This document shows positions 5,388 to 25,946 of a stretch of DNA of 32,128 nucleotides, in pieces. The DNA is taken from positions 1 through 32,128 of the forward strand of contig NZ_ALVX01000003.1 in the NCBI RefSeq assembly GCF_000447295.1, written 5' to 3'. The notes beneath the pieces are model-generated. The model saw only the letters and a program-made list of their open reading frames with translations, made no database searches and had not been told where the DNA came from. The first letter of the stretch is position 1; every line of letters starts with the position of its first letter. Source of the DNA: Fischerella sp. PCC 9431. Its GTDB lineage: Bacteria; Cyanobacteriota; Cyanobacteriia; Cyanobacteriales; Nostocaceae. The translations under genes were made by a program, and so were the position numbers.

Positions 5388-5718
5388 TGACTTTTCTCCT
5401 AATTAAAATTTCTCGGAACTGTCATACATCTCGTATCTACGTACAGCGTCGTATTTATTACTGATGTCGCTATTGCTGAACAAGAACTTATGAAGGCTGA
5501 TTTACTATGCTCCGGGTTCCGGGTAACGGGTGAATTTTTCAAAAATACTAGGGGTTTTTGTACCCGGACGTTTTACCCGGAGATACCCGGAAGGCTTGCA
5601 AAATCGACCCGGAAGCGCCCTCTGGTCTACCCGGATAATTGAACGTACCCGGAAACTACCCGGAAGGGGTTCAAGAGCATTTTGAGAGTCAATGTGTACT
5701 GATGACATTTTTAGAAAC
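5388..5718. other. parM upstream region
   Basis: This gene-free stretch between parM and the possible small gene at 5719 is mostly the TACCCGGA array (5511-5664). The 120 bp next to parM is AT-rich and should hold its promoter and leader; no confident -35/-10 pair can be assigned. The open frame seen through the array on the minus strand is Pro/Arg-rich repeat translation and is not regarded as a gene. Confidence 0.5.
5511..5664. repeat. TACCCGGA repeat array, candidate parC centromere and parM operator
   Basis: Nine copies of an 8-bp motif stand upstream of parM. Seven are direct: 5561, 5574, 5584, 5606 (GACCCGGA), 5628, 5646 and 5657. Two are inverted: 5511 (one mismatch) and 5518 (exact). 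Start-to-start spacings are 13, 10, 22, 22, 18 and 11 bp, roughly multiples of a helical turn. In ParMRC loci parC is a set of direct repeats just upstream of parM that also holds the parM promoter. The location here fits, with the 55-aa RHH protein as the likely ligand. The role is inference. Confidence 0.7.
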
Positions 5719-5904
5719 CTACTGAGAATTGGGTGGCTTGCTTGCTGTGCCAGTTTCGAGAGAAGCAACTTTAAAAATCAGTCTCTCTACAGCTGCGGAT
5801 AGAACATTGCCAGGGGCATCTATTGAAATCCCCTCAAGTCTGCATAGATCAGCTATGGCGAAACAGTTAATAGTGATTCGCCTGCTTTCATATTTGTCAA
5901 TCAT
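5719..5904 (-). CDS. Possible small RHH-like hypothetical protein
   Basis: A 61-aa frame from the ATG at 5904. It has the order basic strand (RRITINCF), helix, turn (DAPGNV), helix (LSAAVERLIFKVASLE) and a polar tail, which is compatible with a small DNA-binding fold. No ribosome-binding site is seen, and an overlapping plus-strand frame of similar length exists, so it may be spurious. If real it would be divergent from the RHH gene at 6067 and would sit just beyond the parC-like array. Confidence 0.3.
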   Translation of the reverse strand: MIDKYESRRITINCFAIADLCRLEGISIDAPGNVLSAAVERLIFKVASLETGTASKPPNSQ

Positions 5905-7356: not shown

Positions 7357-10300
7357 ATGCCACAATTACAACAAGTTAATAACTCGCTTCAGCAGCAACA
7401 ACCCTCGTATATAGAAGCAAAACACTGGAATGAATGGTTAGCCAGTGGCGTTTCACCAGCGTTAACCGCTCTAAACGTCCGCTCTCTCACAGGGAATGAA
7501 GCATACGAATATTTACTCTACGCCCTACCTCAAACAGCCAGACGCAACGACGGGCGACTGCGAGATAAGTACTTAAGGCAGTATGCTCACGTCTCTTCCG
7601 GGGGCTGGTGGGTAAGCGGACTTGACCCCCGAAATCATTGGCAACCAATGGAATGGGGGCGTTTTAAACCCGACAACCCACGTATTGATTGGGAGAAAGG
7701 CAAATTCGTCAAATACGAATCTCCCCCCAAAACACCCAACCGCGTCACCTACTTTAACGTCCCAGATTGCATTTGGGACAAAGTAGCAAAACGGTACAAT
7801 ATCAAACGCTATCATTCTCCCCTAGCCCTACGTCTTTGTGACAGATTAGATCCCCTCCTGTTTTGGCAATGGGTACAGCAACACCCAGAAATCCCCGTCA
7901 TTCCTTGTGAAGGTGAGAAAAAAGCCGCTAGTTTGCTAACTCTTGGTTTTGTAGCTGTAGCCCTCCCTGGTATTTGGAACGGGCGTGTTGGTAAAAAAGA
8001 TTTCGACGAACGCCTGCACCCCGACTTAATGCCCTTGGCACAACCAGGACGCAAATTTATTACCCTCTTCGACTACGAAACTCAACCAAAAACCCGTTGG
8101 TCAGTATACCAAGCCATTGTTCGTACTGGCAAAACCATTTTGGCTGCTGGTTGTAGTAGTGAAGTAGCATTACTGCCAGGGCCAGAAAAAGGCGTTGATG
8201 ATTTTGTTGTCGAACGTGGCGAAAATGCTGACGCACTACTTACCGCCATCATCGATGATGCCAAAACACTTTCAGATTACCAGCGCTCGTACCGTCAAAG
8301 TTGCCGAGGACTGACCAAGAAATACACACCACATGTAAGAGTAAATGTCAAGTACCTATCCGAAGCAGTTGAGCTACCACAGTCCGGGCTAGTTGGGTTA
8401 TGCAGTGACATGGGGACGGGCAAAACCGAGTTAATGAAAAAGTGGCGCGATGAGCATCCAGATCAGCGATTCCTCAATAACGGACATCGAGTTAACTTGC
8501 TCAAAAACCTGGCACAACGCCTACAAACAGAAATGTACTCTGATTTGGGTTATGTGGGTTTAGCTAAAGCTACTGCCCTCAGCATTACCATCGACAGCTT
8601 GCACAAGCTTAACACCGACGCTCTCAAATATGGCTGTATATTTATTGATGAAGTTTGCCAGTACCTAACTCACCTGCTGCACAGTAAAACCTGTAAAGAG
8701 CATCGGGCTGAAATTCTGGAGGTACTGCAATATATAGTGTATAACACGCCACTTGTGGTCATCGCCGACGCACACCTGGACGACGTGACAATAGACTTTT
8801 TTAGGGCAATGCGTCCACCAGGCGAAGAACCCTTCATTATCAAAAACGACTGGAAGAATGGCGGACGTACTATTTATTGGTATGAGGGTAATGATACAAG
8901 CGCCTTAGTTGCTCAAGTTTCGGCGGCGCTGATGGCAGGTCAGAAAATTATGGTGGCTTCTGACTCCAAAAAATTTATTAAGAAACTTGAATATTCGTTG
9001 ACTAACCGGGGGGTTAAGTGTCGGGAGGTAGAGGCGCAGGGAGCTTTTGGTGCAGGGGATGCAGAGGGAGCAGGGGGAGCAGGGGGAGAAAAAAGAGCTT
9101 CTTCTCATATGCAGACAGGGGAGCAACAGATGCAGAGGGAACTGGGAGAGAAAAATACAGATGAAGGTGCAGAGGGTGTTTGTGGAGAATTATCTCAAAA
9201 ACTTTCTTCTTCAAGTGCTACCCCAGCTTCCCCAGCCCCCCCTGCTACCCCTGCTACCCCAGCCCCCCTGCCCCCCTGCCCCTCTGCACGGTTACGCATA
9301 TGGTCTATCCACTCAGAAAACTCTGGCAGCGAAGAAAATGTTGCTTTTATTAAAGATATAACTAATGCTGTAAAAAGCCTGGATGCGCTATTCGTCTCTC
9401 CCAGCCTGGGAACTGGGGTAGACATTCCCGAATATCATTTTGATGCAGTGTTTGGAGCTTTTCACGGGGTTTCTCAAACTGCTACCGAGTGCGCCCAGCA
9501 ACTTTGGCGCTATCGCCCCATAGTACCAATTCATGTTTGGGTAGCCCCAAGACCCCCCTTCGGTTATTTGGACACTAACGCCAGCAAAATTAAAGAGCGC
9601 CTGCTGCAAACTAATGAAATGACAGCTTTCCTGCTGAGAATTGACCGTGAAACAGGTAAGCGGGGCGCTGAGAAAGACTGGGCGTTGGATGCTTACTGCC
9701 AAATCATGGCTAACCGTCACCAATCAATTAACAATTTACGAGCTGATTTGCGTGATTTGTTGACTGAGATGGGCAACCAAATTATACCAATGGGAACTGA
9801 CGATAATGATGATGCTGTATATGAGCTTAAAAATGCCGCAGCTGCCCTAGACATTGCCTACTATGAAGCTGTTGCATCAGCCAAAAATATTTCAGCCATA
9901 GAGTATCGCACCCGCAAAAGTAAGGACTATCTCAAGCCTACTGAAGTGTTTGAGTGTGAAAAATTTCGCCTCTTTGATGCCTACGGAATGGAAGTTACAA
10001 GAGAACTGGTCAAAAAAGACGACGGTGGCAGATTCATTCGAGCGATCTCTTCGCTAGAGGCAATTTTATCTGAGCCAGAAGGGATAATTGTTGATCCACA
10101 TACTGGAAGACAATACCCAGCACCACCAACTATTGTGGCAGATAAAGACTACAACGAGAGAAACAAGCTACCGTTGTGTATGGACTGGGGTAATTTCTCA
10201 GCCCGGTGGCTGGCTAGGTTTAGCTTGGGGCTGCATGGTATTCTCAAACGCTTGGTTAATGGCGAAGAGATTACTGCTGCTGACCCAGAATGTGTGCAAA

Positions 10301-10974
10301 TGACTGAAATAGCCAAACAATGTGCGGCACACGTAAAAGCCATCCTTGGGTTTACGGTTCCCCCTGATTGTAAACCGATATGGCTGTTGGGGTTATTACT
10401 TGACCAGTTGGGATTAAAACTCTCTGACCATAAAAAAGGGCCAAGGGGTCAACAAGTTAAATATTTTTCGTTATCTCAAGAGGAATTGGACTTTGCATTG
10501 GCAGTAATTGCTCACCGAGAGCGCAAGCGTACTCAAAAGGAAGAGCGTGTGCGTTCTACAAAGAATGAAAATGCTGCAATGCAAGCTATGTATGGGGTTT
10601 CACCGCCAAACGCCCCCGTATCCACCCCCCCCCATAATTGTATAGGGGAACCCCATTTGGAGGGGGTGAATACTACCGACTCTGAACTAGGAAAATCCCC
10701 AATTCCTAACATTGATTTTGAGCAATTTGAACCGTCTGACGGCAACCCCACCCCCATAAAAGCTTGTGTCGAACAACTAACAGAGGGTATTAAGTATGGA
10801 GTCCAAGCCATAAAATCTATCCTCCAGCGTTGGACAACCGAACGGCGGTGGTGTGCGGTGCTGTTATTGGAGAAAATTGCTGAAAGCGAACTGCGGCGGT
10901 TGGAGGAGTTAGCGCCTCAAATATATGAGTGGCTAAATGAATCGATATTACCGATGGAGGGTGCAACTAACTGA
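7357..10974 (+). CDS. CyRepA1-family plasmid replication protein (TOPRIM-like plus helicase)
   Basis: Large cyanobacterial plasmid initiator, 1205 aa from the ATG at 7357 (chosen over 7348 by ribosome-binding-site spacing). An N-terminal DUF3854/TOPRIM-like domain contains IPCEGEKKAASLL at about 178-192, as in primase-type proteins. A P-loop helicase part has DMGTGKT (351-357), IDEVCQ (430-435) and a C-terminal RecA-like lobe with SLGTGVDIPE (about 682-691) and an ATECAQQLWRYRP arginine-finger motif. A low-complexity Gly/Ala/Glu then Pro/Ala stretch (about 562-647) interrupts the helicase and is coded by an inverted repeat. A C9 homopolymer (10625-10633) lies in a Pro-rich linker near the C-terminus. 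It probably opens and primes the origin. Family assignment is confident; biochemical detail is inference. Confidence 0.85.
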   Translation: MPQLQQVNNSLQQQQPSYIEAKHWNEWLASGVSPALTALNVRSLTGNEAYEYLLYALPQTARRNDGRLRDKYLRQYAHVSSGGWWVSGLDPRNHWQPMEWGRFKPDNPRIDWEKGKFVKYESPPKTPNRVTYFNVPDCIWDKVAKRYNIKRYHSPLALRLCDRLDPLLFWQWVQQHPEIPVIPCEGEKKAASLLTLGFVAVALPGIWNGRVGKKDFDERLHPDLMPLAQPGRKFITLFDYETQPKTRWSVYQAIVRTGKTILAAGCSSEVALLPGPEKGVDDFVVERGENADALLTAIIDDAKTLSDYQRSYRQSCRGLTKKYTPHVRVNVKYLSEAVELPQSGLVGLCSDMGTGKTELMKKWRDEHPDQRFLNNGHRVNLLKNLAQRLQTEMYSDLGYVGLAKATALSITIDSLHKLNTDALKYGCIFIDEVCQYLTHLLHSKTCKEHRAEILEVLQYIVYNTPLVVIADAHLDDVTIDFFRAMRPPGEEPFIIKNDWKNGGRTIYWYEGNDTSALVAQVSAALMAGQKIMVASDSKKFIKKLEYSLTNRGVKCREVEAQGAFGAGDAEGAGGAGGEKRASSHMQTGEQQMQRELGEKNTDEGAEGVCGELSQKLSSSSATPASPAPPATPATPAPLPPCPSARLRIWSIHSENSGSEENVAFIKDITNAVKSLDALFVSPSLGTGVDIPEYHFDAVFGAFHGVSQTATECAQQLWRYRPIVPIHVWVAPRPPFGYLDTNASKIKERLLQTNEMTAFLLRIDRETGKRGAEKDWALDAYCQIMANRHQSINNLRADLRDLLTEMGNQIIPMGTDDNDDAVYELKNAAAALDIAYYEAVASAKNISAIEYRTRKSKDYLKPTEVFECEKFRLFDAYGMEVTRELVKKDDGGRFIRAISSLEAILSEPEGIIVDPHTGRQYPAPPTIVADKDYNERNKLPLCMDWGNFSARWLARFSLGLHGILKRLVNGEEITAADPECVQMTEIAKQCAAHVKAILGFTVPPDCKPIWLLGLLLDQLGLKLSDHKKGPRGQQVKYFSLSQEELDFALAVIAHRERKRTQKEERVRSTKNENAAMQAMYGVSPPNAPVSTPPHNCIGEPHLEGVNTTDSELGKSPIPNIDFEQFEPSDGNPTPIKACVEQLTEGIKYGVQAIKSILQRWTTERRWCAVLLLEKIAESELRRLEELAPQIYEWLNESILPMEGATN
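9040..9297 (+). repeat. In-frame low-complexity inverted-repeat insertion in the rep gene
   Basis: The left half carries repeats of GCAGRGGGAGCAGGGGG type (about 9040-9150). The right half carries the opposite strand of the same kind (CCCCAGC, CCCCTGC, about 9215-9295), so the segment can fold as an imperfect GC-rich hairpin. It is in frame and adds about 85 low-complexity residues between helicase strands. Composition differs sharply from the flanking coding DNA, and similar purine-rich GCAGGGG arrays are dispersed in Nostoc-like genomes. Confidence 0.65.
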
Positions 10975-13924: not shown

Positions 13925-14371
13925 ATGACAGAACCAGACCCCCGTACACAATTAAGTAATCAACTAGCCGAAGCCCTAAATAATCGGTCAATAGAGCCTG
14001 ATGAAAAGCGGGAAATAACCATCACTTTTAGAGTCAGCTATGCTGAAAAAACAAGGCTAGAGCAACGGTGCAGTGGAGTGGTGCAAAGCGACTTTATCAG
14101 AGCCAGACTATTTGACTACCCTTTACCCCAACCAAAGCTGACTATCCCTGAAATTAACAGACAAGCCATCTACGAACTAAAGAAAATTGGTAATAACCTC
14201 AACCAGCAGACAAGGGCTATTAACGAAGCAGTAAAGATTGGTAGACAACCGTTGACAAATAAAGTAGAAGAATATCTAAAAACTATTAAAGAACTAGCTG
14301 CCCTATTAGAACAAACTCACGCTAAATTATCTCAATCCATTTCAGATAAGGAGCAGCGAAATGATTACTAA
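13925..14371 (+). CDS. MobC/TraJ-like RHH relaxosome accessory protein
   Basis: The 148-aa protein has an N-terminal RHH element: strand REITITFRVS at about 26-35, helix YAEKTRLEQRCSG, turn, helix SDFIRARLF. It is followed by the MobC-type signature INRQAIYELKKIGNNLNQ (about 77-94) and a C-terminal helix. These proteins bind oriT and load the relaxase. The start at 13925 is preferred over 13862, which would add 21 residues coded mostly by the heptamer repeat; neither has a good ribosome-binding site. It overlaps the relaxase gene by 11 bp. Confidence 0.8.
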   Translation: MTEPDPRTQLSNQLAEALNNRSIEPDEKREITITFRVSYAEKTRLEQRCSGVVQSDFIRARLFDYPLPQPKLTIPEINRQAIYELKKIGNNLNQQTRAINEAVKIGRQPLTNKVEEYLKTIKELAALLEQTHAKLSQSISDKEQRNDY

Positions 14372-16013
14372 AATCAAAGCTAATAAATCATTTCGTGGCA
14401 CTACAAAATACGTACTAGAGAAAGAGAAAGCCAAAATCATTGGTGGGAATATGTACGGAAGAACCACCAATGATTTAGTTGAGCAGTTCACGCTATCAGC
14501 ACACCTAAACCCCCTACTAAAAGACCCTTGCTATCACTTAATGCTTAGTGTCCCTAAAACTGACAGAACTTTAAATGATGACGAATTGGCTAATATCTCT
14601 GAACGTCACTTTGCTTCTTTGATTGTTCTGTCAAGATTAAAAGGTGACGAAGCTCAAGTAAAACAACCAGATAAAAGGATAGACGATGCCAAGCTAAAGC
14701 AGCTAGTTGATGAATTTATCGAAACAGAACTACCCGCTTATGACTTCTTTATAGCCCGACACTCTGACAAAGAAAACGACCACACTCACATCGTTGCATC
14801 CAGAGTTAATAACCTAGACGGTAAATCCATCCGCACTTGGAATAATTACGCCCATTCAGAACACTCAGCCCGATTGTTAGAGCAAAAATTTAACCTGACT
14901 CCAGTACAAAGCAGTTGGGAAAGCAAACGCAAAGCAATGACACGTAACCAACTTGAACGAGTCGAGCGCGATGGGCTTCCAGGTGAAGAAATAATGCGAC
15001 GGACTATTGAGCAAGTGGCAGTTGATAAACCCACAATGCCCCAATTAATAGAAAGGTTATGGTCAGAACATCAAGTCAAAGCTGTCGTTAGTTATTATAG
15101 TCACGGTGGAGTCAGAGGCATCAAATTTGGTATTGATGTAGGCTCAATTAATGAAGATGGTTCTCCCAGATTGCTGTGGAAACAGGGAGGGAATTTAAAT
15201 AAATATAAGTGTTCATTTAAAAAGCTTCAGACAGAATTAGGGGTAAATTACGACCCTCTACGAGATGATCCAGAAATTAAACGTCTGACTCAAATAATAG
15301 AATCAGCAACAATTAGGCAAGATAATCAGCAGACAATAGATTATCCATTATCTAATAAACTTACAGATAAACTCCTTATATCTACTAATAAACCTGAAAC
15401 TATAGCATCAATTAAACCCCGAATAACGCAGGCTCACGCAGTAGAGCTATACAACTATTACAGTACTGGACTTGAGCAAAAATTGGTCACAGACCGGGAC
15501 AAAGAAGTAGCTAATAGGGCGTTAAAAGATGATAGGTCAGCCCCAGAGGTTGAAGAAATCCTAAAAGCAAGCCCAGCCGGATGGACTACTGATGAAGCTA
15601 GAGCATTGGTCTTAATAGCCAACAATAAGCTGAAATCACAACAACCATTCCCAGAACTCAAACCAGTAGAAAAACAGCATTTACAGCAGGAATTATTAGC
15701 CGTAGCAGTGCCTGTTGGTGTTGGGATAATCAATCACTTTCTTAAAGATACTGAAAAAAATAGCCTCAGATTTAAACATGCAACTCTGTCAAAACAGGGT
15801 AAAGAATTGGTGTATACCCATGATGAAAGGGGTGAAATTTTTCGTGTAGCAGTCAATCGAAATCAGTCAGGAAAGCTAGAGTATTCCCCGGTTAATGTGG
15901 GTGAAATCAAGAGTGAAGATATTGAAACTTGGAAAAAGGCAAAGCAGATATTGCAAGAATATATAGAACTTCAACAGCTTCAAAAAACTCAATTTAAAGG
16001 ATTATCGAGATAG
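14361..16013 (+). CDS. MOBP-type relaxase
   Basis: The 550-aa relaxase nicks oriT and carries the transferred strand. Within the N-terminal domain the likely catalytic tyrosine is Y17 (GTTKYVLE), followed by the conserved GGNMYGR patch (28-34). The metal-binding motif ARHSDKENDHTHIVASR has His134, Asp136, His141 and His143. The C-terminal 300 residues lack a recognisable primase or helicase and end in a helical tail. A ribosome-binding site AGGAG is 8 nt before the ATG. It is coupled to the MobC-like gene. No type IV secretion or coupling-protein gene is in the window, so the plasmid may be mobilisable rather than self-transmissible, unless those genes lie outside. Confidence 0.88.
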   Translation: MITKIKANKSFRGTTKYVLEKEKAKIIGGNMYGRTTNDLVEQFTLSAHLNPLLKDPCYHLMLSVPKTDRTLNDDELANISERHFASLIVLSRLKGDEAQVKQPDKRIDDAKLKQLVDEFIETELPAYDFFIARHSDKENDHTHIVASRVNNLDGKSIRTWNNYAHSEHSARLLEQKFNLTPVQSSWESKRKAMTRNQLERVERDGLPGEEIMRRTIEQVAVDKPTMPQLIERLWSEHQVKAVVSYYSHGGVRGIKFGIDVGSINEDGSPRLLWKQGGNLNKYKCSFKKLQTELGVNYDPLRDDPEIKRLTQIIESATIRQDNQQTIDYPLSNKLTDKLLISTNKPETIASIKPRITQAHAVELYNYYSTGLEQKLVTDRDKEVANRALKDDRSAPEVEEILKASPAGWTTDEARALVLIANNKLKSQQPFPELKPVEKQHLQQELLAVAVPVGVGIINHFLKDTEKNSLRFKHATLSKQGKELVYTHDERGEIFRVAVNRNQSGKLEYSPVNVGEIKSEDIETWKKAKQILQEYIELQQLQKTQFKGLSR

Positions 16014-17787: not shown

Positions 17788-18435
17788 ATGGGTGCAGTAA
17801 TAGCATTAGTCAACCAGAAAGGGGGTTGCAGCAAGTCCACAACTGCTGTTCACATTAGCTGTTGGCTATCCCGCAAAGGTCACAAAATCCAGCTTTTAGA
17901 TGCTGATGCCCAGCGCAGCAGTTCAATTTGGCTGACTTCGATGGAAGATAAACCAATTCCAACTACTGTGCTGCAATCACCGGATGAACTATTAGAGCAA
18001 ATTCCAGAGTTAGCCGAACAGTGCGATTATCTGATTGTGGACGGCCCTGCTGGTTTATCTGAAGCTAGTAGGGCGATATTATTTCGTGCTGATTTGGCAG
18101 TAGTCCCCTGTCAACCGACGGGCTTAGACCTACAATCGGCTTCTGATGCTGTTCGTCTAATTAAGCAGGCTCAATCTGTACGTGGCGGCGCACCCAAAGC
18201 AGCTATATTCATAAGCCGTGCTGTTAAGGGTACGAAACTACTAGATGAAGCTAGAGCACTTTTGAGCAAAACAAAAGAAGTGTCGGTGCTAAAAACAGTG
18301 ATTCACCAAAAGCAAGCGATCGCAGACACCTTTGGGCAAGCCGCAACAATTTGGGATTTATCGGGTCGTCCAGCAGCTGAATCTGCCAGGGAATATGAGC
18401 GGTTGTTCAAAGAAATTATGGGGATGCTGCCATGA
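17788..18435 (+). CDS. parA: ParA-type partition ATPase (type Ib, short form)
   Basis: The 215-aa Walker-type partition ATPase has a deviant Walker A KGGCSKST at residues 11-18, Walker A' LLDADAQRSSS (about 36-46) and Walker B LIVDGPAG (about 83-90). It has no N-terminal helix-turn-helix, as in ParF-like short ParAs, which cannot autoregulate through their own DNA binding. It works with the RHH protein coded immediately downstream (4-bp overlap ATGA). ParA forms ATP-dependent gradients on the nucleoid that position plasmids. Operator-like repeats lie just upstream. Confidence 0.9.
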   Translation: MGAVIALVNQKGGCSKSTTAVHISCWLSRKGHKIQLLDADAQRSSSIWLTSMEDKPIPTTVLQSPDELLEQIPELAEQCDYLIVDGPAGLSEASRAILFRADLAVVPCQPTGLDLQSASDAVRLIKQAQSVRGGAPKAAIFISRAVKGTKLLDEARALLSKTKEVSVLKTVIHQKQAIADTFGQAATIWDLSGRPAAESAREYERLFKEIMGMLP

Positions 18436-18878: not shown

Positions 18879-20588
18879 ATGGAGAAAAACTATACATTCA
18901 AATTTAATCCTTCCACTGCCAGTGAAGCCCTCAAAGTCGCTAAATATGACCCACTCAACTTTTACGAGGCGCGTCTTGACCTGTTCAACCTCTCAGTAAT
19001 GGCAGATTATGATCAGCTAATTTGCCTACCCACTCTTACTGCTATTGATAAATACTGGTATCAGATTGAAACAGCCCGAAAAGTCCTCAGACAACTGGGT
19101 GGACGGGCATTACTAGCGGATGAAGTAGGATTGGGCAAAACCATTGAAGCTGGACTAATCATAGCCGAATACTTAGCCAGGGGTATGGTACAGTCCCTCC
19201 TAGTGTTAACTCCCGCATCTCTAGTTTCCCAGTGGCAATCAGAATTAAATGACAAATTTAATATCGCCACTATCACCACAGATAACCGTGACCCCCAACA
19301 ACCCATAGAATCTTTTTGGACAGATAATCCCCGCATTATCGCTTCATTAAACACGGCTAAGTCTGCTAAACACTATCCCCACGTCACCAGTCGCACTTGG
19401 GACTTGGTTGTTGTCGATGAAGCCCACCACCTGAAAAATCGCACTACCCTCAACTGGAAACTGGTCAATGCCCTCAATAAGCGGTTTATCCTCATGCTCA
19501 CTGCTACGCCAGTGCAGAACTCCCTGGTGGAACTGTTTAATCTGCTCACCCTCCTCAAACCGGGACTACTACAAACAGAAGCCGCCTTTAAAAAAGAATA
19601 TGTTGATTCCAAAAATGGACGAGTCCCGAAAAATCCAGAAAAGTTACGTTCTCTGATGCGGGAAGTCATGGTACGAAATACCCGCGCCCTAGTAGATGTC
19701 AAACTGCCCAAACGCTTCGCCACCACAATTACCGTTACCCCGGCGGCTGGCGAGGAGAAACTTTACCAGGACTTGAGCGAGTATCTGCGTCAAGAAGAGG
19801 AAAAGCTAGACAGACTCTCCCGTACCAATTTGCTGATGCGTGCTGGTTCATCCCCTGGTGCTTTGGCTGACTCCCTCAAGCAATTGACCAAACGCCTACC
19901 TGATGAAGAACTGAAGTCTTTAGCAAGACGAGCATCTCAAGTAAAGCAGGTCGAGAAAGCAAAAGCATTGGTAGAGATGCTCATCATATCTCGCCAGAAA
20001 ACCTTGGTCTTCACAACCCATAAAGCAACTAGCACTTATTTGGCCCAAACTCTGCAAGCAGCAAATATCCCCTTTGCAGAATTTACTGGCGGGATGTCCC
20101 TTAAACAGAAAGATGAGGCCATCGCCGCATTTCGGGATAATGTTTCTGTACTACTGGCATCCGAAACAGGCGGGGAAGGACGTAACATTCAGTTTGCCAA
20201 TGCGATTGTTAATTATGACCTGCCTTGGAATCCAATGAAGATAGAACAGCGCATTGGTCGTATTCACCGCATCGGACAAACCCAAGATGTTTTTATTTTT
20301 AACTTTTGTCTCAAGGGCAGTATCGAAGAATATATTCTGCGGATATTGCACGACAAAATTAATATGTTTGAATTGGTGGTCGGAGAGATTGAAACAATTT
20401 TGGGGAATGTGGATGATGAATTTGACTTTAGTGAAATTGTCATGGATATCTGGCTTAAACATCAGGCTAAACCCGAATTAGATACAGCCTTTGACCAATT
20501 GGCAGATAATTTGTTGAAAGCCAAAAACCAATATCAGCAAACTCAAGAACTGGATGAGCAGATTTTTGGTGAAGATTTTGAAGCTTGA
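18879..20588 (+). CDS. SNF2-family DEAD/DEAH-box helicase (RapA/DrmD-like core)
   Basis: The 569-aa Swi2/Snf2 ATPase has a Q-like N-terminus, motif I DEVGLGKT (81-88), motif II DEAH (180-183), motif III TAT (208-210) and motif V ASETGGEGRNIQ (427-438). Motif VI is QRIGRIHRIGQ (457-467). Such proteins translocate on double-stranded DNA and remodel protein-DNA complexes. At 569 aa it lacks the extra N- and C-terminal domains of RapA (about 970 aa), and the gene 19 bp downstream may supply the missing part. The pair lies next to the partition locus at the start of a defence-like region. Members of this family occur in antiphage systems such as DISARM (DrmD), but no other DISARM component is here. 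Confidence 0.85.
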   Translation: MEKNYTFKFNPSTASEALKVAKYDPLNFYEARLDLFNLSVMADYDQLICLPTLTAIDKYWYQIETARKVLRQLGGRALLADEVGLGKTIEAGLIIAEYLARGMVQSLLVLTPASLVSQWQSELNDKFNIATITTDNRDPQQPIESFWTDNPRIIASLNTAKSAKHYPHVTSRTWDLVVVDEAHHLKNRTTLNWKLVNALNKRFILMLTATPVQNSLVELFNLLTLLKPGLLQTEAAFKKEYVDSKNGRVPKNPEKLRSLMREVMVRNTRALVDVKLPKRFATTITVTPAAGEEKLYQDLSEYLRQEEEKLDRLSRTNLLMRAGSSPGALADSLKQLTKRLPDEELKSLARRASQVKQVEKAKALVEMLIISRQKTLVFTTHKATSTYLAQTLQAANIPFAEFTGGMSLKQKDEAIAAFRDNVSVLLASETGGEGRNIQFANAIVNYDLPWNPMKIEQRIGRIHRIGQTQDVFIFNFCLKGSIEEYILRILHDKINMFELVVGEIETILGNVDDEFDFSEIVMDIWLKHQAKPELDTAFDQLADNLLKAKNQYQQTQELDEQIFGEDFEA

Positions 20589-20607: not shown

Positions 20608-21648
20608 ATGATTTCCGACCCGATTATTGCTACCTTAGAAAAAATTGTTTCTCTGCATGACGGAATAGCAGAACCTGCTAGTGAACACATTTTAAATGCA
20701 TTGTTAACTGAAAACATCGCATCCCTACTTTCCCTCCCCGAAGAAGTCACATTTACTACTATTGTTGATGTCCCTCAAAGTGTTTTCGTTACCTATCATT
20801 CAGAAGTATTAAATAAGTTATCAGACCTATTATCTACTAAAGGACTTATTAGTGCCTTAAGCGTGAAATTCGATGGTTATTTAAAAACTACAGGATTTGA
20901 AAAGAGCATCTCAGAGAGATTCGTAGTTCAAAATGGTCTAATTCGTTTTGTAGAAGCTAAACCAGAAATCACTCGTTACATCCTGTGTAATGTTGCTTAC
21001 ACAGCGAATGCAGATGAAAAAAGAATTGGTTTAGTTTCATTTATTATCAATGAGCTAACAGGAGTAACACCAGTAGAAATTGGTGATGCTTTGTTCTGGG
21101 AGTCAGACCGAATTGCAGTAGCTCATGAAGCCACGCCATTATCTATGCCTTTTGATGAGTTATTGAAGTTAATCGAACATCAAAGTGCAATATTGATTGG
21201 AAAATCTCTAGAGAATTGGCAGGCTAAATTAACCAGAGCTAGAGCTAGGGATGAAGACAGACTCAAGGCTTATTACAATACAATTAGCTCAGAAATTCGC
21301 AACAAGATTGAGTCAAAACATTTGGTAGGTGATGAAAAAGATAAGGAAGTAGCACGAATTGAAGCCACAGAAAGAGAATTATCAAGAAAATTGTTAGATA
21401 TCCAAGAGCGTTACGCAATGAGTGTGGAAGCTTGGTTGCACAGTGCCATGATTATTCATTTACCTACGGTACATATTCAATGTGAATTGCAAAGAAAGAA
21501 AGCAAAACGAACTGTTACAGCAGTTTGGAATCCGTTCACTAAAATTATTGAGCCGCTACGCTGTGAATTATCAGGAGAACCTGTTTACGATTTCTATTTA
21601 GATGATCAATCCGCCAAAATTATCTCACCGACAGTTTGGAGAAAGTAA
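20608..21648 (+). CDS. Hypothetical partner of the SNF2 helicase
   Basis: Not recognised. The 346-aa protein begins 19 bp after the helicase stop and is surely co-transcribed with it. The N-terminal third is mixed alpha/beta, the middle (about 180-290) is a charged helical, coiled-coil-like region (RARARDEDRLKAYY, ELSRKLLDIQERYAM), and the C-terminus holds a beta-rich patch with CELSGEPVYDFYLDD. A Cys at about 294 and the CELSG Cys could form part of a small metal site, but a full CxxC pair is not seen. Helicase plus partner total about 915 aa, near the length of one-piece RapA/DrmD proteins, which suggests a split form. This is inference. Confidence 0.65.
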   Translation: MISDPIIATLEKIVSLHDGIAEPASEHILNALLTENIASLLSLPEEVTFTTIVDVPQSVFVTYHSEVLNKLSDLLSTKGLISALSVKFDGYLKTTGFEKSISERFVVQNGLIRFVEAKPEITRYILCNVAYTANADEKRIGLVSFIINELTGVTPVEIGDALFWESDRIAVAHEATPLSMPFDELLKLIEHQSAILIGKSLENWQAKLTRARARDEDRLKAYYNTISSEIRNKIESKHLVGDEKDKEVARIEATERELSRKLLDIQERYAMSVEAWLHSAMIIHLPTVHIQCELQRKKAKRTVTAVWNPFTKIIEPLRCELSGEPVYDFYLDDQSAKIISPTVWRK

Positions 21649-21687: not shown

Positions 21688-22095
21688 ATGACTCAAGACA
21701 AAGTACAAAAGTTAATTCAACAAGCCGAGAAACTGAACTACCTGGAGCAGCTGCATTTGCTAGAGCTATTACAAGAGGTGGTTCGGAAAAATAATCCGGT
21801 TGCACGCTTGGCGAAACTTCAAGCAAACCGCGAAGAAATTTTTAAGATTGCTGCTAAATATGGCGTTTTAAATATACGAGTGTTTGGCTTAGGGACGCAG
21901 CCAGAAACTGAAGGCTCAAATGAGATAGTTTTTATTGTTGATGTAGAGCCAAAACGAGGTATATTTGCTCAAGCTAATTTTTTATTAGATTTGCAAGAGT
22001 TACTTGGTTTTAAAGAAGTGTATCTTGCTGCTAATGAGAAAAGTATTAGAAAACCTTTCCGAAAGGAAATGTTAGAAACAGCAGTGCCGTTGTAG
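21688..22095 (+). CDS. Degenerate MNT-type nucleotidyltransferase-like protein
   Basis: The 135-aa protein has an N-terminal helical part (1-45) then a fold resembling minimal nucleotidyltransferases (antitoxin-like MntA). The region LNIRVFGLGTQPETEGSNEI matches the usual FGS-x-ARGE-x-SDxDLLV pattern in position. The key GS is changed to GL (67-68), and the SDID metal-binding aspartates are replaced (SNEIVF), so it is probably catalytically dead. The C-terminal RKEMLETAVPL resembles the end of that family. No HEPN toxin partner adjoins. Start codon ATG, weak ribosome-binding site. It may be a vestigial toxin-antitoxin gene or a repurposed binding protein. Confidence 0.55.
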   Translation: MTQDKVQKLIQQAEKLNYLEQLHLLELLQEVVRKNNPVARLAKLQANREEIFKIAAKYGVLNIRVFGLGTQPETEGSNEIVFIVDVEPKRGIFAQANFLLDLQELLGFKEVYLAANEKSIRKPFRKEMLETAVPL

Positions 22096-22176: not shown

Positions 22177-24882
22177 ATGAATTTTGTAATAACTTTTGAG
22201 GTTTTGAAAGCCTATTATTTGTGTCCTCGCAAAGCATATTTACTGATATACAGTAGAGAGCAAGGAAATCTGCATGAATATGAAAAAATCTTGATTGAAA
22301 AGCAATTTATAAATCAATATAGAAATTTGGAATTACTTAAACAGAAGCATATTGATGTTTATCCATACAGCGTTTCAAATCTCGGAGAAGAGCATAAATT
22401 TTTAATTGATGCCAAGCTAGTTGCTGATAGGTTTCAGGCTGATTGTTCACTATTAACAAGAGTCAGCCAGTTAAATTACGAGCCAACGATTTTTATCGGA
22501 ACACACGCTATCAACCATACGGACAAGCTTCATTTAATGTTCATTGGTCATGTATTGGCAAAAATTCAGGGTAAGCCATCTGATGTGGGACATATTGTCA
22601 ATGTTCAGGGTGAGTCGCGGCGGTTCAAACTGGAAGGAAGCCATAAAGTTTTCAGTCCACTACTGGAACGCTTACAAGACTGGTTAAATGAATCTTCTCC
22701 AGAAGAACCACCTGTCATCTTAAATAAGCATTGCCCTACCTGTCAGTTTAGAGAGCAATGCAAAGCAAAAGCAATTCAAGAAGATAGCTTAAGTCTCTTG
22801 GATAAAGTTACCCCCAAAATAGTTCGTCAATATGAAAAGAAAGGTATTTTCACTGTTAAACAACTTTCATATTTATTCAAACCTCGAAAGCGTAAGAAAC
22901 GAGCTAGAAAATCTCCAGCAGTAACCCATGATGTTAAATTACAAGCTCTTGCCATTCGCACAGGCAAAATCTATTTGCAAGAAATACCTGGTTTGACACG
23001 ACAAGAAACTGAATTGTATCTAGATATCGAAGGTTTACCCGATCAGAACTTATATTACCTAATTGGGCTGTTAGTTCGTCAGAATGAAAAAATAGAATAT
23101 CATCCTTTTTGGGCGGATGATATTGAGAATGAAAGAAAAATTTGGCAAGAGTTTTTAGGCATTGTTGCTCAATACCCCAACACACCAATTTACCATTATG
23201 GTAGTTATGAGTTACGTGCAATCAAAACACTATCTCAAAGGTACGAAACTAATAGTCAAGAACTTATTACTCAATTAGTTAACGTTAATAAGCAAATTTA
23301 TGGAAAGGTATATTTTCCAGTCTACTCTAATAAATTAAAGGAAGTTGCAAGTTTTGTCGGAGCTACTTGGACAGCACCTGATGCCTCTGGAATACAGAGT
23401 CTTGTTTGGAGGCATTACTGGAATGATAGCTACGAGATTCAGTATAAATTAAAACTGATAACGTATAACCAGGAAGATTGCCATGCTTTAAAACTCTTGG
23501 CTGACGAGCTTGAAAGAATTAAATATTCTGCTGATGTTTTGTCTGATGTTGATTTTGCCCAGACACCTAAATCGCAAATATCAGAAGCTGGGGAAAAAGT
23601 TAGTAGCCAGTTTGAGATGATTCTCAGATTTGCAAGCGTTAAGTATGAGAAAAAGAAAATCAGTTTTAGCCAAGGGAAAGTGAGTGAAGGGGGTAAACGA
23701 GGAGGATCAAAGCCGTCAAAAACCATGCCGAAACCAAATAAAATTGTGCAAGTGCCACAAGTAGATGCTTGCTTTCAGTGTGGATATAGTCCTCTAAAGT
23801 TAATGCAAAGTAGCACTACTAGAACCATCATCGATCTTGTGCTTGCAAAAAATGGAGTTAAAAAGATTGTAACGAGATATGTTGGTTTTCACGGATACTG
23901 TGCTAAATGTCAGCGAATATACGCTCCTCCAAAAGTTTTAGAATTTGAGAGACATCAATTTTACGGACATGGCTTTCAATCGTGGATTGTTTACCAAAGA
24001 GTTGCTTTGCGTTTGCCTCTTCAAAGCATTCTTGAATCGGCAAAAGAGCAGTTTAATGAGCAGATGTCTTCTACTCGCATCACATATTTCATGAAAAACT
24101 TTGCTAAGTATTATGCAGAAACTGAGCAAGCTATTACAAAACGATTATTAGAAAGTTCTTTTATTCATGTTGATGAGACAAATTTTACTATCAAAGGAGT
24201 CAATTGGTATGTATGGGTATTCACTAATGGTGAATACGTTATTTTCAAGTTAACAGAAACGCGAGAGACTGACATTGTTTATCAAATTCTAGAAAAATAT
24301 GAAGGTGTCTTGATTTCTGATTTTTATACTGGCTATGACTCCATACCATGCAAACAGCAAAAATGCTGGGTTCACCTGATTAGAAATCTCAACAAAGATA
24401 TTAGAGAAAATCCCTTTGATATGGAATATGAGGTTTTTATTTTAAAGGTTAGAAGTTTAATAATTCCAATTATGGAGGCTGTCCAAAAATATGGACTCAA
24501 AAAGTTTTATCTTCACAAATTTGAGAAACAAGTCGATAATTTTTATAGAAATTCCATCGAAAATAGGCAATATAAATCTGAATTAACATTAAAGTATCAA
24601 CAGCATTTCAAGAAATATAGAGATAGCTTGTTTGCTTTTCTTAAACAGGATGGAATACCTTGGCACAACAACACAGCAGAGAATGCAATCAGGCATGTTG
24701 CTATACAACGAGATATTTCCAAGGCTTCTTTTCATGAAGAACCAACTCGAAATTATTTAGTCCTACTTGGTATACGCCAAACTTGCCGTTACCAGAATAA
24801 ATCATTCTTCAGGTTCTTATTCTCTGAGGAAACTGATATCGATAAGTTCAAAACTAGAAAGACTAGAAAGAGTAAAAACTAA
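22177..24882 (+). CDS. Fusion: TM0106-type RecB-like nuclease + RNase H-like exonuclease + IS66-type transposase
   Basis: One 901-aa open frame with three recognisable parts. (1) Residues 1-200, a Cas4/RecB-like module with the four cysteines of an Fe-S cluster: Cys16 (LCPRKAY) and Cys186, Cys189, Cys195. The expected nuclease E-x-K is not clean (EPT at 102-104), so activity is uncertain. (2) About 275-450, an RNase H-like DEDD exonuclease with YLDIEG (Asp283, Glu285) and YNQEDC (Asp434), the TM0106/YprB-type arrangement. (3) About 500-885, IS66 TnpC-like: a zinc ribbon of Cys532, Cys535, Cys575, Cys578, then the DDE triad Asp666 (HVDETNF), Asp715 (ISDFYTGYDS) and Glu835 (NNTAENAIRHVAIQRD). 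The IS66 leucine zipper and TnpA/TnpB are absent. No terminal repeats are seen nearby. ATG start, weak ribosome-binding site. Domain calls are from motifs; the joint function is unknown. Confidence 0.8.
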   Translation: MNFVITFEVLKAYYLCPRKAYLLIYSREQGNLHEYEKILIEKQFINQYRNLELLKQKHIDVYPYSVSNLGEEHKFLIDAKLVADRFQADCSLLTRVSQLNYEPTIFIGTHAINHTDKLHLMFIGHVLAKIQGKPSDVGHIVNVQGESRRFKLEGSHKVFSPLLERLQDWLNESSPEEPPVILNKHCPTCQFREQCKAKAIQEDSLSLLDKVTPKIVRQYEKKGIFTVKQLSYLFKPRKRKKRARKSPAVTHDVKLQALAIRTGKIYLQEIPGLTRQETELYLDIEGLPDQNLYYLIGLLVRQNEKIEYHPFWADDIENERKIWQEFLGIVAQYPNTPIYHYGSYELRAIKTLSQRYETNSQELITQLVNVNKQIYGKVYFPVYSNKLKEVASFVGATWTAPDASGIQSLVWRHYWNDSYEIQYKLKLITYNQEDCHALKLLADELERIKYSADVLSDVDFAQTPKSQISEAGEKVSSQFEMILRFASVKYEKKKISFSQGKVSEGGKRGGSKPSKTMPKPNKIVQVPQVDACFQCGYSPLKLMQSSTTRTIIDLVLAKNGVKKIVTRYVGFHGYCAKCQRIYAPPKVLEFERHQFYGHGFQSWIVYQRVALRLPLQSILESAKEQFNEQMSSTRITYFMKNFAKYYAETEQAITKRLLESSFIHVDETNFTIKGVNWYVWVFTNGEYVIFKLTETRETDIVYQILEKYEGVLISDFYTGYDSIPCKQQKCWVHLIRNLNKDIRENPFDMEYEVFILKVRSLIIPIMEAVQKYGLKKFYLHKFEKQVDNFYRNSIENRQYKSELTLKYQQHFKKYRDSLFAFLKQDGIPWHNNTAENAIRHVAIQRDISKASFHEEPTRNYLVLLGIRQTCRYQNKSFFRFLFSEETDIDKFKTRKTRKSKN

Positions 24883-25088: not shown

Positions 25089-25946
25089 TTAAAACGGCTC
25101 AGACCATCGCTTAACTAAAACCTCCCCAGAACTCTTATCAGGGCTAACGTGCAGATATTTACTCGTAGTATCCAAACTTGTATGCCCTAAAGTAGCCTGC
25201 ACCAAATGCACTGGAACACCTTCATCTAAAGCGTGGGTGGCATGACTGTGCCTAAACCAGTGGGCTGAAACATTCATGGCATTCTCCAATTCTGCTGCTG
25301 CCGCCGCCCTTTTCACCACTCGGTCAATATGAGAAGGAGCCAAAGGTCTACCCGTAGCACTGGCAAACACAGGCGCATCCTTCAACGCCTCACCACGCAG
25401 GGACATTAACTCCAGCCATAGCTCCTGGGGGACGTGGACTCGGCGAGTGCGCCCACCCTTGCCGTAAACATTAATCTGCCCACCGCCACCGCGACTGGGG
25501 ATCGCATCTTTCCACCGCAAACCGCACAACTCAGAAACCCGAATCCCAGTTAAATACAGAGTTTTTAAAATTAACCGATTGCGCTTATCAGTCGTCGCCG
25601 CAATCATCGCATCTACATCTGACGGCGTAAGAATACGCTCAACCAAAGTATCTTTCGGCTTGGGCAATTTAAATTGTTTGGGAATCGGACTGCGAGAAAT
25701 CGGCGGTTTCTCCAAACTGGTCACATAGGAAAAAAACGCCTTGAGAATATTGAGATGCTTAACTTTAGTTGTGTCTGCCTCTTGCAGAGAATCTAACCAT
25801 TCCCGAACGTGACGGATCTGAATGTCGGCGATCGCGTCCACCGATGTAAAACTTAGAAACTTGTGAATGGTATTTTGATAAGAAGCCCTAGTTTTACCGT
25901 GATGCACGTCCAACCACTCTTCTACCAACTCTGTCAGCGTTCTCAT
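25089..25946 (-). CDS. XerD-like tyrosine site-specific recombinase
   Basis: The 285-aa recombinase has a SAM-like core-binding domain (1-95) and a catalytic domain (about 100-285). Its full set of catalytic residues is Arg136 (TGIRVSELCGLRW), Lys163 (YGKGGRTRRV), His229 and Arg232 (SAHWFRHSHATH), His255 (LGHTSLDTTSKY) and nucleophile Tyr264. Plasmid-borne enzymes of this type resolve multimers or drive integration. The gene stands alone, convergent with the fusion gene. A 23-bp inverted repeat with a 29-bp spacer lies just upstream (26033-26107) and might be its site. ATG start without a clear ribosome-binding site. Confidence 0.88.
   Translation of the reverse strand: MRTLTELVEEWLDVHHGKTRASYQNTIHKFLSFTSVDAIADIQIRHVREWLDSLQEADTTKVKHLNILKAFFSYVTSLEKPPISRSPIPKQFKLPKPKDTLVERILTPSDVDAMIAATTDKRNRLILKTLYLTGIRVSELCGLRWKDAIPSRGGGGQINVYGKGGRTRRVHVPQELWLELMSLRGEALKDAPVFASATGRPLAPSHIDRVVKRAAAAAELENAMNVSAHWFRHSHATHALDEGVPVHLVQATLGHTSLDTTSKYLHVSPDKSSGEVLVKRWSEPF

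Follow-up and report, generated by a model that had tools for sequence, protein, structure and literature searches.

The reuse of DDE transposases as cellular enzymes is familiar from eukaryotes but rare in bacteria. In the eukaryotic Metnase/SETMAR, a mariner-type DDE transposase was fused to another enzymatic domain, a SET domain, and reused, while the TnsA-TnsB fusions of Tn7-like elements combine nuclease and DDE transposase in a single polypeptide. TnpAREP proteins rely on Y1, not DDE, chemistry. Among possible relatives of nuclease type, the COG2251 proteins are grouped in one part of PMC3985635 with presumed 3'-5' exonucleases that have a DUF83 domain, and the partners mentioned there are AAA-domain proteins, not IS66. 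The stretch of DNA analysed here, called the window below, is a 32,128-bp contig of Fischerella sp. PCC 9431. It carries, at 22177..24882 on the + strand, a fusion gene of 901 codons plus stop that encodes an iron-sulphur (Fe-S) RecB/Cas4-like domain, a DEDDy exonuclease, an IS66 zinc ribbon and an IS66 DDE transposase domain. What the sequences of the family show is the fusion itself and its spread, active sites that do not vary, purifying selection, a lost RecB motif, the lack of recognisable IS66 ends and, in two clades, exchange of the IS66 half. As both active sites are kept while the usual transposon ends are gone, the protein looks like a transposase re-used for DNA processing. Our preferred reading, a tentative one with somewhat less than an even chance, is that of a domesticated transposase-exonuclease used when DNA elements come into conflict, whose exchangeable IS66 half would serve as specificity module.

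The reading frame is intact over its whole length, as the initial annotation had described it. The nuclease half matches TIGR03491 (TM0106) over residues 7-443 (22195..23505, + strand; 218 bits for an NCBIfam cut-off of 97.45), and by residue counts this region contains the Fe-S cysteines C16, C186, C189 and C195. The RNase_H_2/DEDDy exonuclease domain covers residues 280-445 (23014..23511, + strand; 98.5 bits, Pfam cut-off 22), with D283, E285, E345, Y430 and D434. Y430 lies four residues ahead of D434, a spacing which we take to be that of DEDDy-type exonucleases. A linker (residues 490-515; 23644..23721, + strand), where the predicted local distance difference test (pLDDT) falls below 50, leads to the IS66 transposase half at residues 511-881 (23707..24819, + strand; NF033517, 188.9 bits for an NCBIfam cut-off of 180). 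Within this half, DDE_Tnp_IS66 matches residues 595-851 (119.6 bits vs a Pfam cut-off of 23.1); the zinc ribbon consists of C532, C535, C575 and C578 and the DDE triad of D666, D715 and E835.

Most of these residues do not vary across the family. In an alignment of 61 of the 72 located genes (11 were dropped), C186, C189, C195, D283, E285, D434, D666, D715 and E835 are kept by all 61 members, and C16 by 56, the remaining five having gaps. The Fe-S cysteine set is thus found at the positions first named for it, with three of the four cysteines invariant, and the exonuclease residues D283, E285 and D434, also named from the start, are completed by Y430 (61/61) and by position 345 (E in 54 members, D in 7). 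The zinc ribbon and the complete DDE triad had been predicted too, and both are confirmed: C532, C575 and C578 are present in 61/61, the C535 position holds C in 49, H in 11 and Q in 1, and the triad is invariant. The description of the N-terminal domain as a Cas4/RecB-like nuclease holds for the Fe-S Cas4-like fold and is not borne out for the catalytic centre. At the positions aligned with the RecB [D/E]xK motif, neither the acidic residue nor the lysine occurs in any fusion member (0/61 for each). Both are kept in 2/2 helicase-type proteobacterial relatives; among 29 cyanobacterial stand-alone proteins, the acidic residue is present in 4, the lysine in 6 and both in 1. This loss in 61/61 members suggests that the Cas4-like domain is probably a DNA-binding, non-cutting scaffold, which would most likely bind DNA through its fold and its Fe-S cluster.

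The AlphaFold2 model, built from a 59-sequence alignment, has a mean pLDDT of 88.8, with the linker 490-515 as a region of low confidence; its predicted template modelling score of 0.58 makes the relative placement of the domains uncertain. Foldseek gave eight matches at E <=0.001, namely four ISCth4 transposase chains and four Cas4 or Cas4-Cas1-type chains. The best match, which concerns the IS66 half, was to the ISCth4 transposase complexes (IS256 family; E 1.6e-8), and the Cas4-type chains had E values from 2.1e-5 to 9.7e-4. In a profile search of the sequences of the PDB, the sole match was Cas4 (8d3l_I, E 1.3e-4), and the fusion protein also matches the PADLOC Cas4 model weakly (E 2.9e-6). 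All three kinds of domain stand in one chain, and the best solved relatives of the N-terminal domain are Cas4 proteins, mostly from Cas4-Cas1-Cas2 complexes. This could fit an enzyme that captures, trims and integrates DNA, in which the Cas4-like domain would bind foreign ends, the DEDD domain trim their 3' ends and the DDE domain insert them, as an analogue of Cas4/DnaQ-Cas1-Cas2. We consider such an activity decidedly unlikely, given that the Cas4 catalytic motif is lost, that IS66 DDE enzymes normally require terminal repeats and that no array or insertion site was noticed near the genes, although these were not searched for systematically.

The fusion is not confined to the window. The family scan, which used one genome per species, confirmed 129 relatives, from which 79 distinct loci were kept. 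Seventy of the 79 are near full length, their match starting no later than residue 170 and reaching past residue 870; the nine partial loci are L037, L064, L066, L067, L069, L085, L092, L095 and L103. Partial loci included, the 79 come from Cyanobacteriota (22), Bacteroidota (14), Pseudomonadota (10), Acidobacteriota (10), Verrucomicrobiota (6), Nitrospirota (5), Thermodesulfobacteriota (3), the archaeal Methanobacteriota (2), Planctomycetota (2) and three other phyla (1 each), two being unclassified. The 61 aligned members represent 12 named phyla, with 15 from Cyanobacteriota, 10 from Acidobacteriota, 9 from Bacteroidota, 7 from Pseudomonadota, 5 each from Verrucomicrobiota and Nitrospirota, and the rest from six other phyla or unclassified (2). 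The closest relatives by amino acid identity are found in Fortiea (86%), in a metagenome bin (78%) and in Chamaesiphon (76%). The homologues do not occur only as separate nuclease and transposase genes, an outcome that would have spoken against a genuine fusion; the same domain order recurs in 70/79 loci. In quick trees, each half forms one clade against 39 TM0106-type and 19 IS66 stand-alone proteins, with a support of 100 in the Shimodaira-Hasegawa-like approximate likelihood-ratio test. A chance fusion, an assembly artefact or a frame error is thus ruled out by the near full-length loci and by the monophyly of both halves in the samples used.

Distances in the N-half and C-half trees are correlated (r 0.76, equalled in 0/999 permutations). 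The tree of the IS66 half requires 26 changes of phylum label, which points to horizontal spread. Within lineages, the gene is rare. Full-length matches occur in 2/292 cyanobacterial genomes, the window's own included, in 1/80 genomes of an Acidobacteriota draw, this being the centre genome itself, and, at E 1e-60, in 2/59 genomes of a Verrucomicrobiota draw, one of them the centre genome. Cyanobacterial genomes often have TM0106-type matches that lack the IS66 half. As to a phage or viral origin, one scan of viral_contigs confirmed no relative among 32 pattern matches, and no relative was found in phages. Judging from these distributions, the fusion is an old, thinly scattered and horizontally spread single-gene family.

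Some loci show particular arrangements. Two different fusion genes follow one another in tandem on a single contig in L090 (7677-13350) and likewise in L096 (2562-10469). One contig of Calothrix sp. PCC 7103 has the halves of a fusion close to its two ends (L103 8001-9410 and L092 1855-3171); with respect to relatives they overlap by 6 bp, which suggests an insertion in the linker. The Polaromonas copy (L097 7595-7939) is seemingly frameshifted near the N-terminus, its start region lying, by eye, out of the frame of the main open reading frame (ORF).

The ratio of nonsynonymous to synonymous substitution (dN/dS), estimated for 11 pairs, ranges over 0.08-0.22 for the IS66 half, 0.04-0.30 for the DEDD part, 0.13-0.42 for the RecB-like part and 0.14-0.67 for the linker. 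As estimated from these pairs, purifying selection acts on all parts of the fusion protein. This selection, together with the frequency of TM0106-type proteins lacking the IS66 half in cyanobacteria, could point to a nuclease for DNA repair or replication intermediates without any role in conflict, whose DDE half would act as a structure-specific nickase. We regard this as quite unlikely, because the distribution is patchy (2/292 cyanobacterial genomes, 1/80 in the Acidobacteriota draw) and because the exchange of the IS66 half, described below, is unlike the behaviour of a housekeeping gene.

The initial annotation had reported no terminal repeats, and scans for transposon ends bear this out. 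The controls were ten stand-alone IS66 genes chosen from cyanobacterial genomes, termini had to start with GTA and end with TAC, and 662 mismatched flank pairs gave the null for the combined score. An inverted repeat of at least 12/14 was found at 1/67 fusion loci (L081) vs 9/10 controls, for 2/330 in the null. A combined repeat and 8-bp duplication score above the null maximum was reached by 8/10 controls vs 1/67 fusions, again L081, which tops this maximum by one point; the mean combined score of the fusion loci was 10.8 vs 10.7. The two controls below the combined-score null maximum (L175 and L181) were retained in the counts, and 4/10 controls show a perfect 8-bp target duplication. In an earlier unrestricted scan, 68 fusion loci had a mean score of 15.9 and a maximum of 17, for a null mean of 15.7 and a null maximum of 20, and 7/10 IS66 controls scored at least 19. 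As L081 lies amid genome-wide GTAGCAG repeats, its inverted repeat is probably a host repeat. Thus, an autonomous IS66-type insertion sequence is ruled out by the repeat, the repeat-plus-duplication and the canonical-end scans. The lack of TnpA and TnpB genes had been remarked on as well. No neighbour gene is conserved, in a search that was not aimed at TnpA/TnpB models. TnpC-only IS66 elements exist, TnpA and TnpB not being universal, so that their absence is not telling alone.

The repeats around L081 could instead indicate a transposase acting in trans on short non-autonomous repeats, comparable to TnpAREP with its repetitive extragenic palindromic (REP) sequences. The fusions of L081 and L063 lie amid inverted-repeat units of about 71-198 bp beginning with GTAGCAGCC; this 24-mer has 139 matches with at most two mismatches in G337, the genome of L081, and is absent from 58 other Verrucomicrobiota genomes of the phylum-wide draw. 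However, within the family of G337 the repeat occurs in 10/12 genomes, 7 of these 10 having no fusion match, and the related fusion genomes G335, G346 and G360 have no repeat match. Trans-mobilisation of REP-like repeats in Verrucomicrobiota is largely rejected for this repeat; other cognate repeats may exist, and a trans-acting role of this kind seems very improbable for the family. The REP-like units themselves, with 24-bp inverted ends (GTAGCAGCCGACGTNAGGAGGCTC), are located at L081 7113-11291 and L063 271-3839.

Direct repeats flank the gene in L081, L108, L111, L084 and L048, the repeat of L081 being genome-wide. In L108, from a Bacteroidota bin, a 72-bp direct repeat (83%; 7636-7707 and 10517-10588) brackets the fusion. 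Hairpins were found near the ends at few of 72 loci (6 upstream, 2 downstream), and the idea of an integron cassette, prompted by short flanks, was dropped by eye.

The gene could also itself be mobile, as a compact element of a type not yet recognised, whose ends would lie at or beside the start and stop codons and whose nuclease half would cut or trim in a TnsAB-like way. Several close relatives (about 76-91% DNA identity) are homologous from within about 60 bp of the ATG to the stop or shortly after, with unrelated flanks. For example, the homology between the window and L036 (88.8% DNA identity) runs from ATG to stop and is followed by a separate 75-bp shared stretch; similar limits at the gene edges are seen for L042/L043, L044/L087, L047/L049 and L055/L057, and longer shared flanks for L038/L051, L097/L098, L060/L062 and a Nitrospirota set. 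Furthermore, several copies are on plasmids or at contig ends, and at L070 the fusion and a HigBA-like unit lie between a comM-like gene and a duplicate of its 3' end. However, inverted repeats are missing as described above. Other cargo of the same plasmid slot also switches abruptly at gene edges, so that gene-exact edges need not mean transposition, and homology bounded by start and stop was discarded as proof of a transposon. Among the extra copies that were fetched from the same genomes, a part of all those present, no pair is near-identical over the gene, a comparison that rests on short-read assemblies, which collapse repeats; the two fusion copies of G769 share only one 90% segment. 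A compact element of this type therefore appears rather unlikely.

Two clades appear to have exchanged their IS66 half while the nuclease half stayed constant, a pattern that appears new within the literature searched. DNA identities of the nuclease part (residues 185-395) and of the IS66 part (480-850) were compared for 1,953 pairs among 63 sequences. At least one part reaches at least 78% DNA identity in 28 pairs. In 17 of these 28, which involve ten sequences from two clades, the nuclease part reaches at least 78% and the IS66 part stays below 72%; the reverse is found in 0/28. In the Nitrospirota set (L070, L073, L099 and L229), where a HigBA-like pair follows the fusion gene and, for L070, L073 and L229, a comM-like (Mg-chelatase) gene precedes it, the nuclease parts are 80-91% identical and the IS66 parts 56-62%, except L073/L229 (91%). 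Between L070 and L073, the synonymous divergence (dS) is 0.25 for residues 100-340 and 0.31 for HigB, saturated for residues 480-850, and 4.8 (saturated) for comM, so that the fusion-HigBA unit is younger at this locus than its comM neighbour. In the same way, L271 and L273, from one genome, have a dS of 0.22 over residues 100-340, saturated over 480-850 and 0.07 over 871-895, with breaks near residues 345 and 870.

The phylogenetic placement of L063 is discordant too, its nuclease part being in the Verrucomicrobiota set (98) and its IS66 part in another, 24-row clade. When all located loci were searched for further pieces of either half, L063 and L065 proved to keep, 8 and 715 bp behind their respective genes, a leftover of the C-terminal end that characterises their relatives, as though a new IS66 half had come to lie ahead of this old end. 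L039 has a further C-half fragment 205 bp downstream, and L090 has C-half fragments 2.8 kb upstream. At L070, a 143-bp duplicate (82%) of the 3' end of the comM-like gene is located directly behind the fusion-HigBA unit (5588-5730), as if this unit may have entered there.

The window is the entire contig C7 of a 7.17-Mb genome in 8 contigs. Its genes include a MobA-like relaxase (14361-16013), a ParA-type gene (17788-18435), and genes for a DUF3854 protein and for Uma2, CoiA-like and NACHT proteins. The relaxase and ParA genes suggest that C7 is probably a mobilizable plasmid; no exact terminal overlap of the contig was found, so its closure is not shown. The plasmid backbone at the upstream edge of the cargo slot consists of an SNF2 helicase gene (18879-20588, + strand), DrmD-like by profile but below the cut-off, and of the gene of a 346-aa protein without family (20608-21648, + strand). 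Both genes recur at about 85-93% DNA identity on many Nostocaceae plasmids or contigs, and the sequence right after the 346-aa gene differs from strain to strain. The complete plasmids of UHCC 0302, NIES-22 and C057 hold other genes in the slot, in two cases a RelE-type toxin-antitoxin pair; the SNF2 backbone is thus also present on plasmids without the fusion in the slot (three inspected). In Nostoc TH1S01 (L041), a different fusion allele (49% amino acid identity) occupies the same slot, flanked by backbone stretches of 3.2 and 1.0 kb that share 90-91% identity with the window. This comparison places the fusion in a cargo slot of variable content, on what is probably a mobilizable plasmid.

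Within this slot, a 135-aa gene (21688..22095, + strand) stands upstream of the fusion. It matches the PADLOC family PDC-S09 and is MNT-type antitoxin-like by eye, with a degenerate motif; a homologue is also upstream of the different allele of L041. Directly behind the fusion stop lies the probable 3' remnant of a DUF4365-type gene (24888 to about 24990, the end being set by eye, + strand), whose first 75 bp match L036, where the fusion precedes a longer copy. A tyrosine recombinase gene (25089..25946, - strand) forms the downstream edge of the slot.

Across the family, no conserved operon partner was found, no gene being conserved beside the fusion. The commonest neighbour groups within 4 kb are recombinase-type (7 loci) and, by eye, ParA-type ATPases (4 loci). 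Among 104 of the 124 nearest-neighbour ORFs, Pfam recorded HigB-like Gp49 toxins (4), phage integrases (3) and ParE toxins (2). Defence models were matched by 4/10 large neighbours, picked after a pooled scan and without a control set: an RTasHel/GajB-like helicase (L048), a restriction-modification methyltransferase (L057), a PrimPol-type protein (L111) and JetB2 (L050). These matches are suggestive only. In the window, 3/9 scanned proteins match PADLOC models well, namely the SNF2 helicase and the candidate families PDC-S09 and PDC-S17. The setting of the gene had been thought to add weight to its interpretation. As evidence it holds only in part, no neighbour being conserved and SNF2 belonging to the backbone.

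The domesticated transposase-exonuclease would go back to the union of an IS66-type transposase with a TM0106-type nuclease, the product then being retained as a working enzyme and not as a recognisable mobile element. Its IS66 half, with zinc ribbon and DDE domain, would recognise particular DNA and nick or cleave it; the Fe-S, catalytically dead RecB/Cas4-like domain may hold the opened DNA end, which the DEDDy exonuclease would then degrade 3' to 5'. The IS66 half could be a swappable specificity module on a constant nuclease half, and its exchangeability fits a conflict between DNA elements, in which the protein would defend the plasmid or the host from phages, plasmids or transposons. Family membership gives the chemistry of each centre; the cooperation of the centres, the recognition of DNA, the order of the steps and the defence role are what we infer. 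The initial annotation had proposed a domesticated transposase with end-processing nucleases. This is still the better reading, as the fusion is genuine, the DEDD and DDE residues are conserved and no IS66-type ends were found, although the RecB/Cas4-like part does not stand as an active nuclease.

Several observations weigh against the conflict reading. Conservation of the DDE residues would also be expected if the protein still moved DNA of an unrecognised kind. The 17 pairs are not independent and reflect few separate events, and the window's own group (the window, L035 and L036) shows no exchange. All ten exchanged sequences come from metagenome bins or from one further genome, so that chimeric assembly is possible and forms the main reservation; the pattern recurs, though, in several separate assemblies. 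The half-trees carry warnings of long branches and composition, with a limited sample of stand-alone proteins, and in L080 and L113 a [D/E]xK string occurs near, not at, the position of the lost motif. The defence-like neighbours were hand-picked once the hits were known, and no neighbour gene is conserved; in the window, the SNF2 protein matched by PADLOC belongs to the plasmid backbone.

A more specific form of the conflict reading, possible but on the whole doubtful, would make the IS66 half a diversified targeting and nicking module, perhaps directed against transposon ends or other invading DNA, and the constant Fe-S/DEDDy exonuclease the part that destroys the nicked target. Old C-terminal ends would be left as remnants, in the style of polymorphic toxins or restriction specificity subunits. 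A family that crosses phyla with invariant transposase and exonuclease centres, has no recognisable transposon ends and swaps its transposase half as a module would represent a new way for a mobile element to become DNA-conflict machinery, and it offers a small, single-gene target for asking whether a transposase domain can set specificity.

No TM0106-IS66 fusion is reported in the open-licence literature searched, and in databases individual members are entered as "transposase IS66, putative" or "TM0106 family RecB-like putative nuclease". The parts themselves are known; what appears new, as far as that literature goes, is their combination, together with the missing recognisable transposon ends and the swapping of the IS66 half. 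Like TM0106/COG2251 proteins (TIGR03491, PF13482), the fusion has an N-half above the curated cut-off, with Fe-S cysteines and DEDD residues as in the 29 cyanobacterial stand-alone proteins. Unlike TM0106 elsewhere, which stands alone or in longer helicase-type proteins, it has a full IS66 transposase and no [D/E]xK. It resembles the TnpC of IS66-family insertion sequences by its zinc ribbon, its DDE domain and an NF033517 match above the cut-off, and differs from these elements by its nuclease domains and by the lack of recognisable terminal repeats or target duplications.

The Fe-S RecB-like fold is shared with Cas4 and Cas4-Cas1 fusions, Cas4 being the best solved relative, whereas the catalytic motif is absent and the integrase part is DDE, not Cas1; the main text of a Cas4 paper (PMC5704561) contains neither "IS66" nor "transposase". 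Like TnpAREP, as presented in part of PMC8266576, the fusion retains a transposase without being an insertion sequence itself, but no cognate repeat is established for its family. It is unlike the TnsA-TnsB fusions in that other nuclease and transposase families are involved, no partner gene is conserved and no ends are found. As in Metnase/SETMAR, a DDE transposase is joined to another enzymatic domain.

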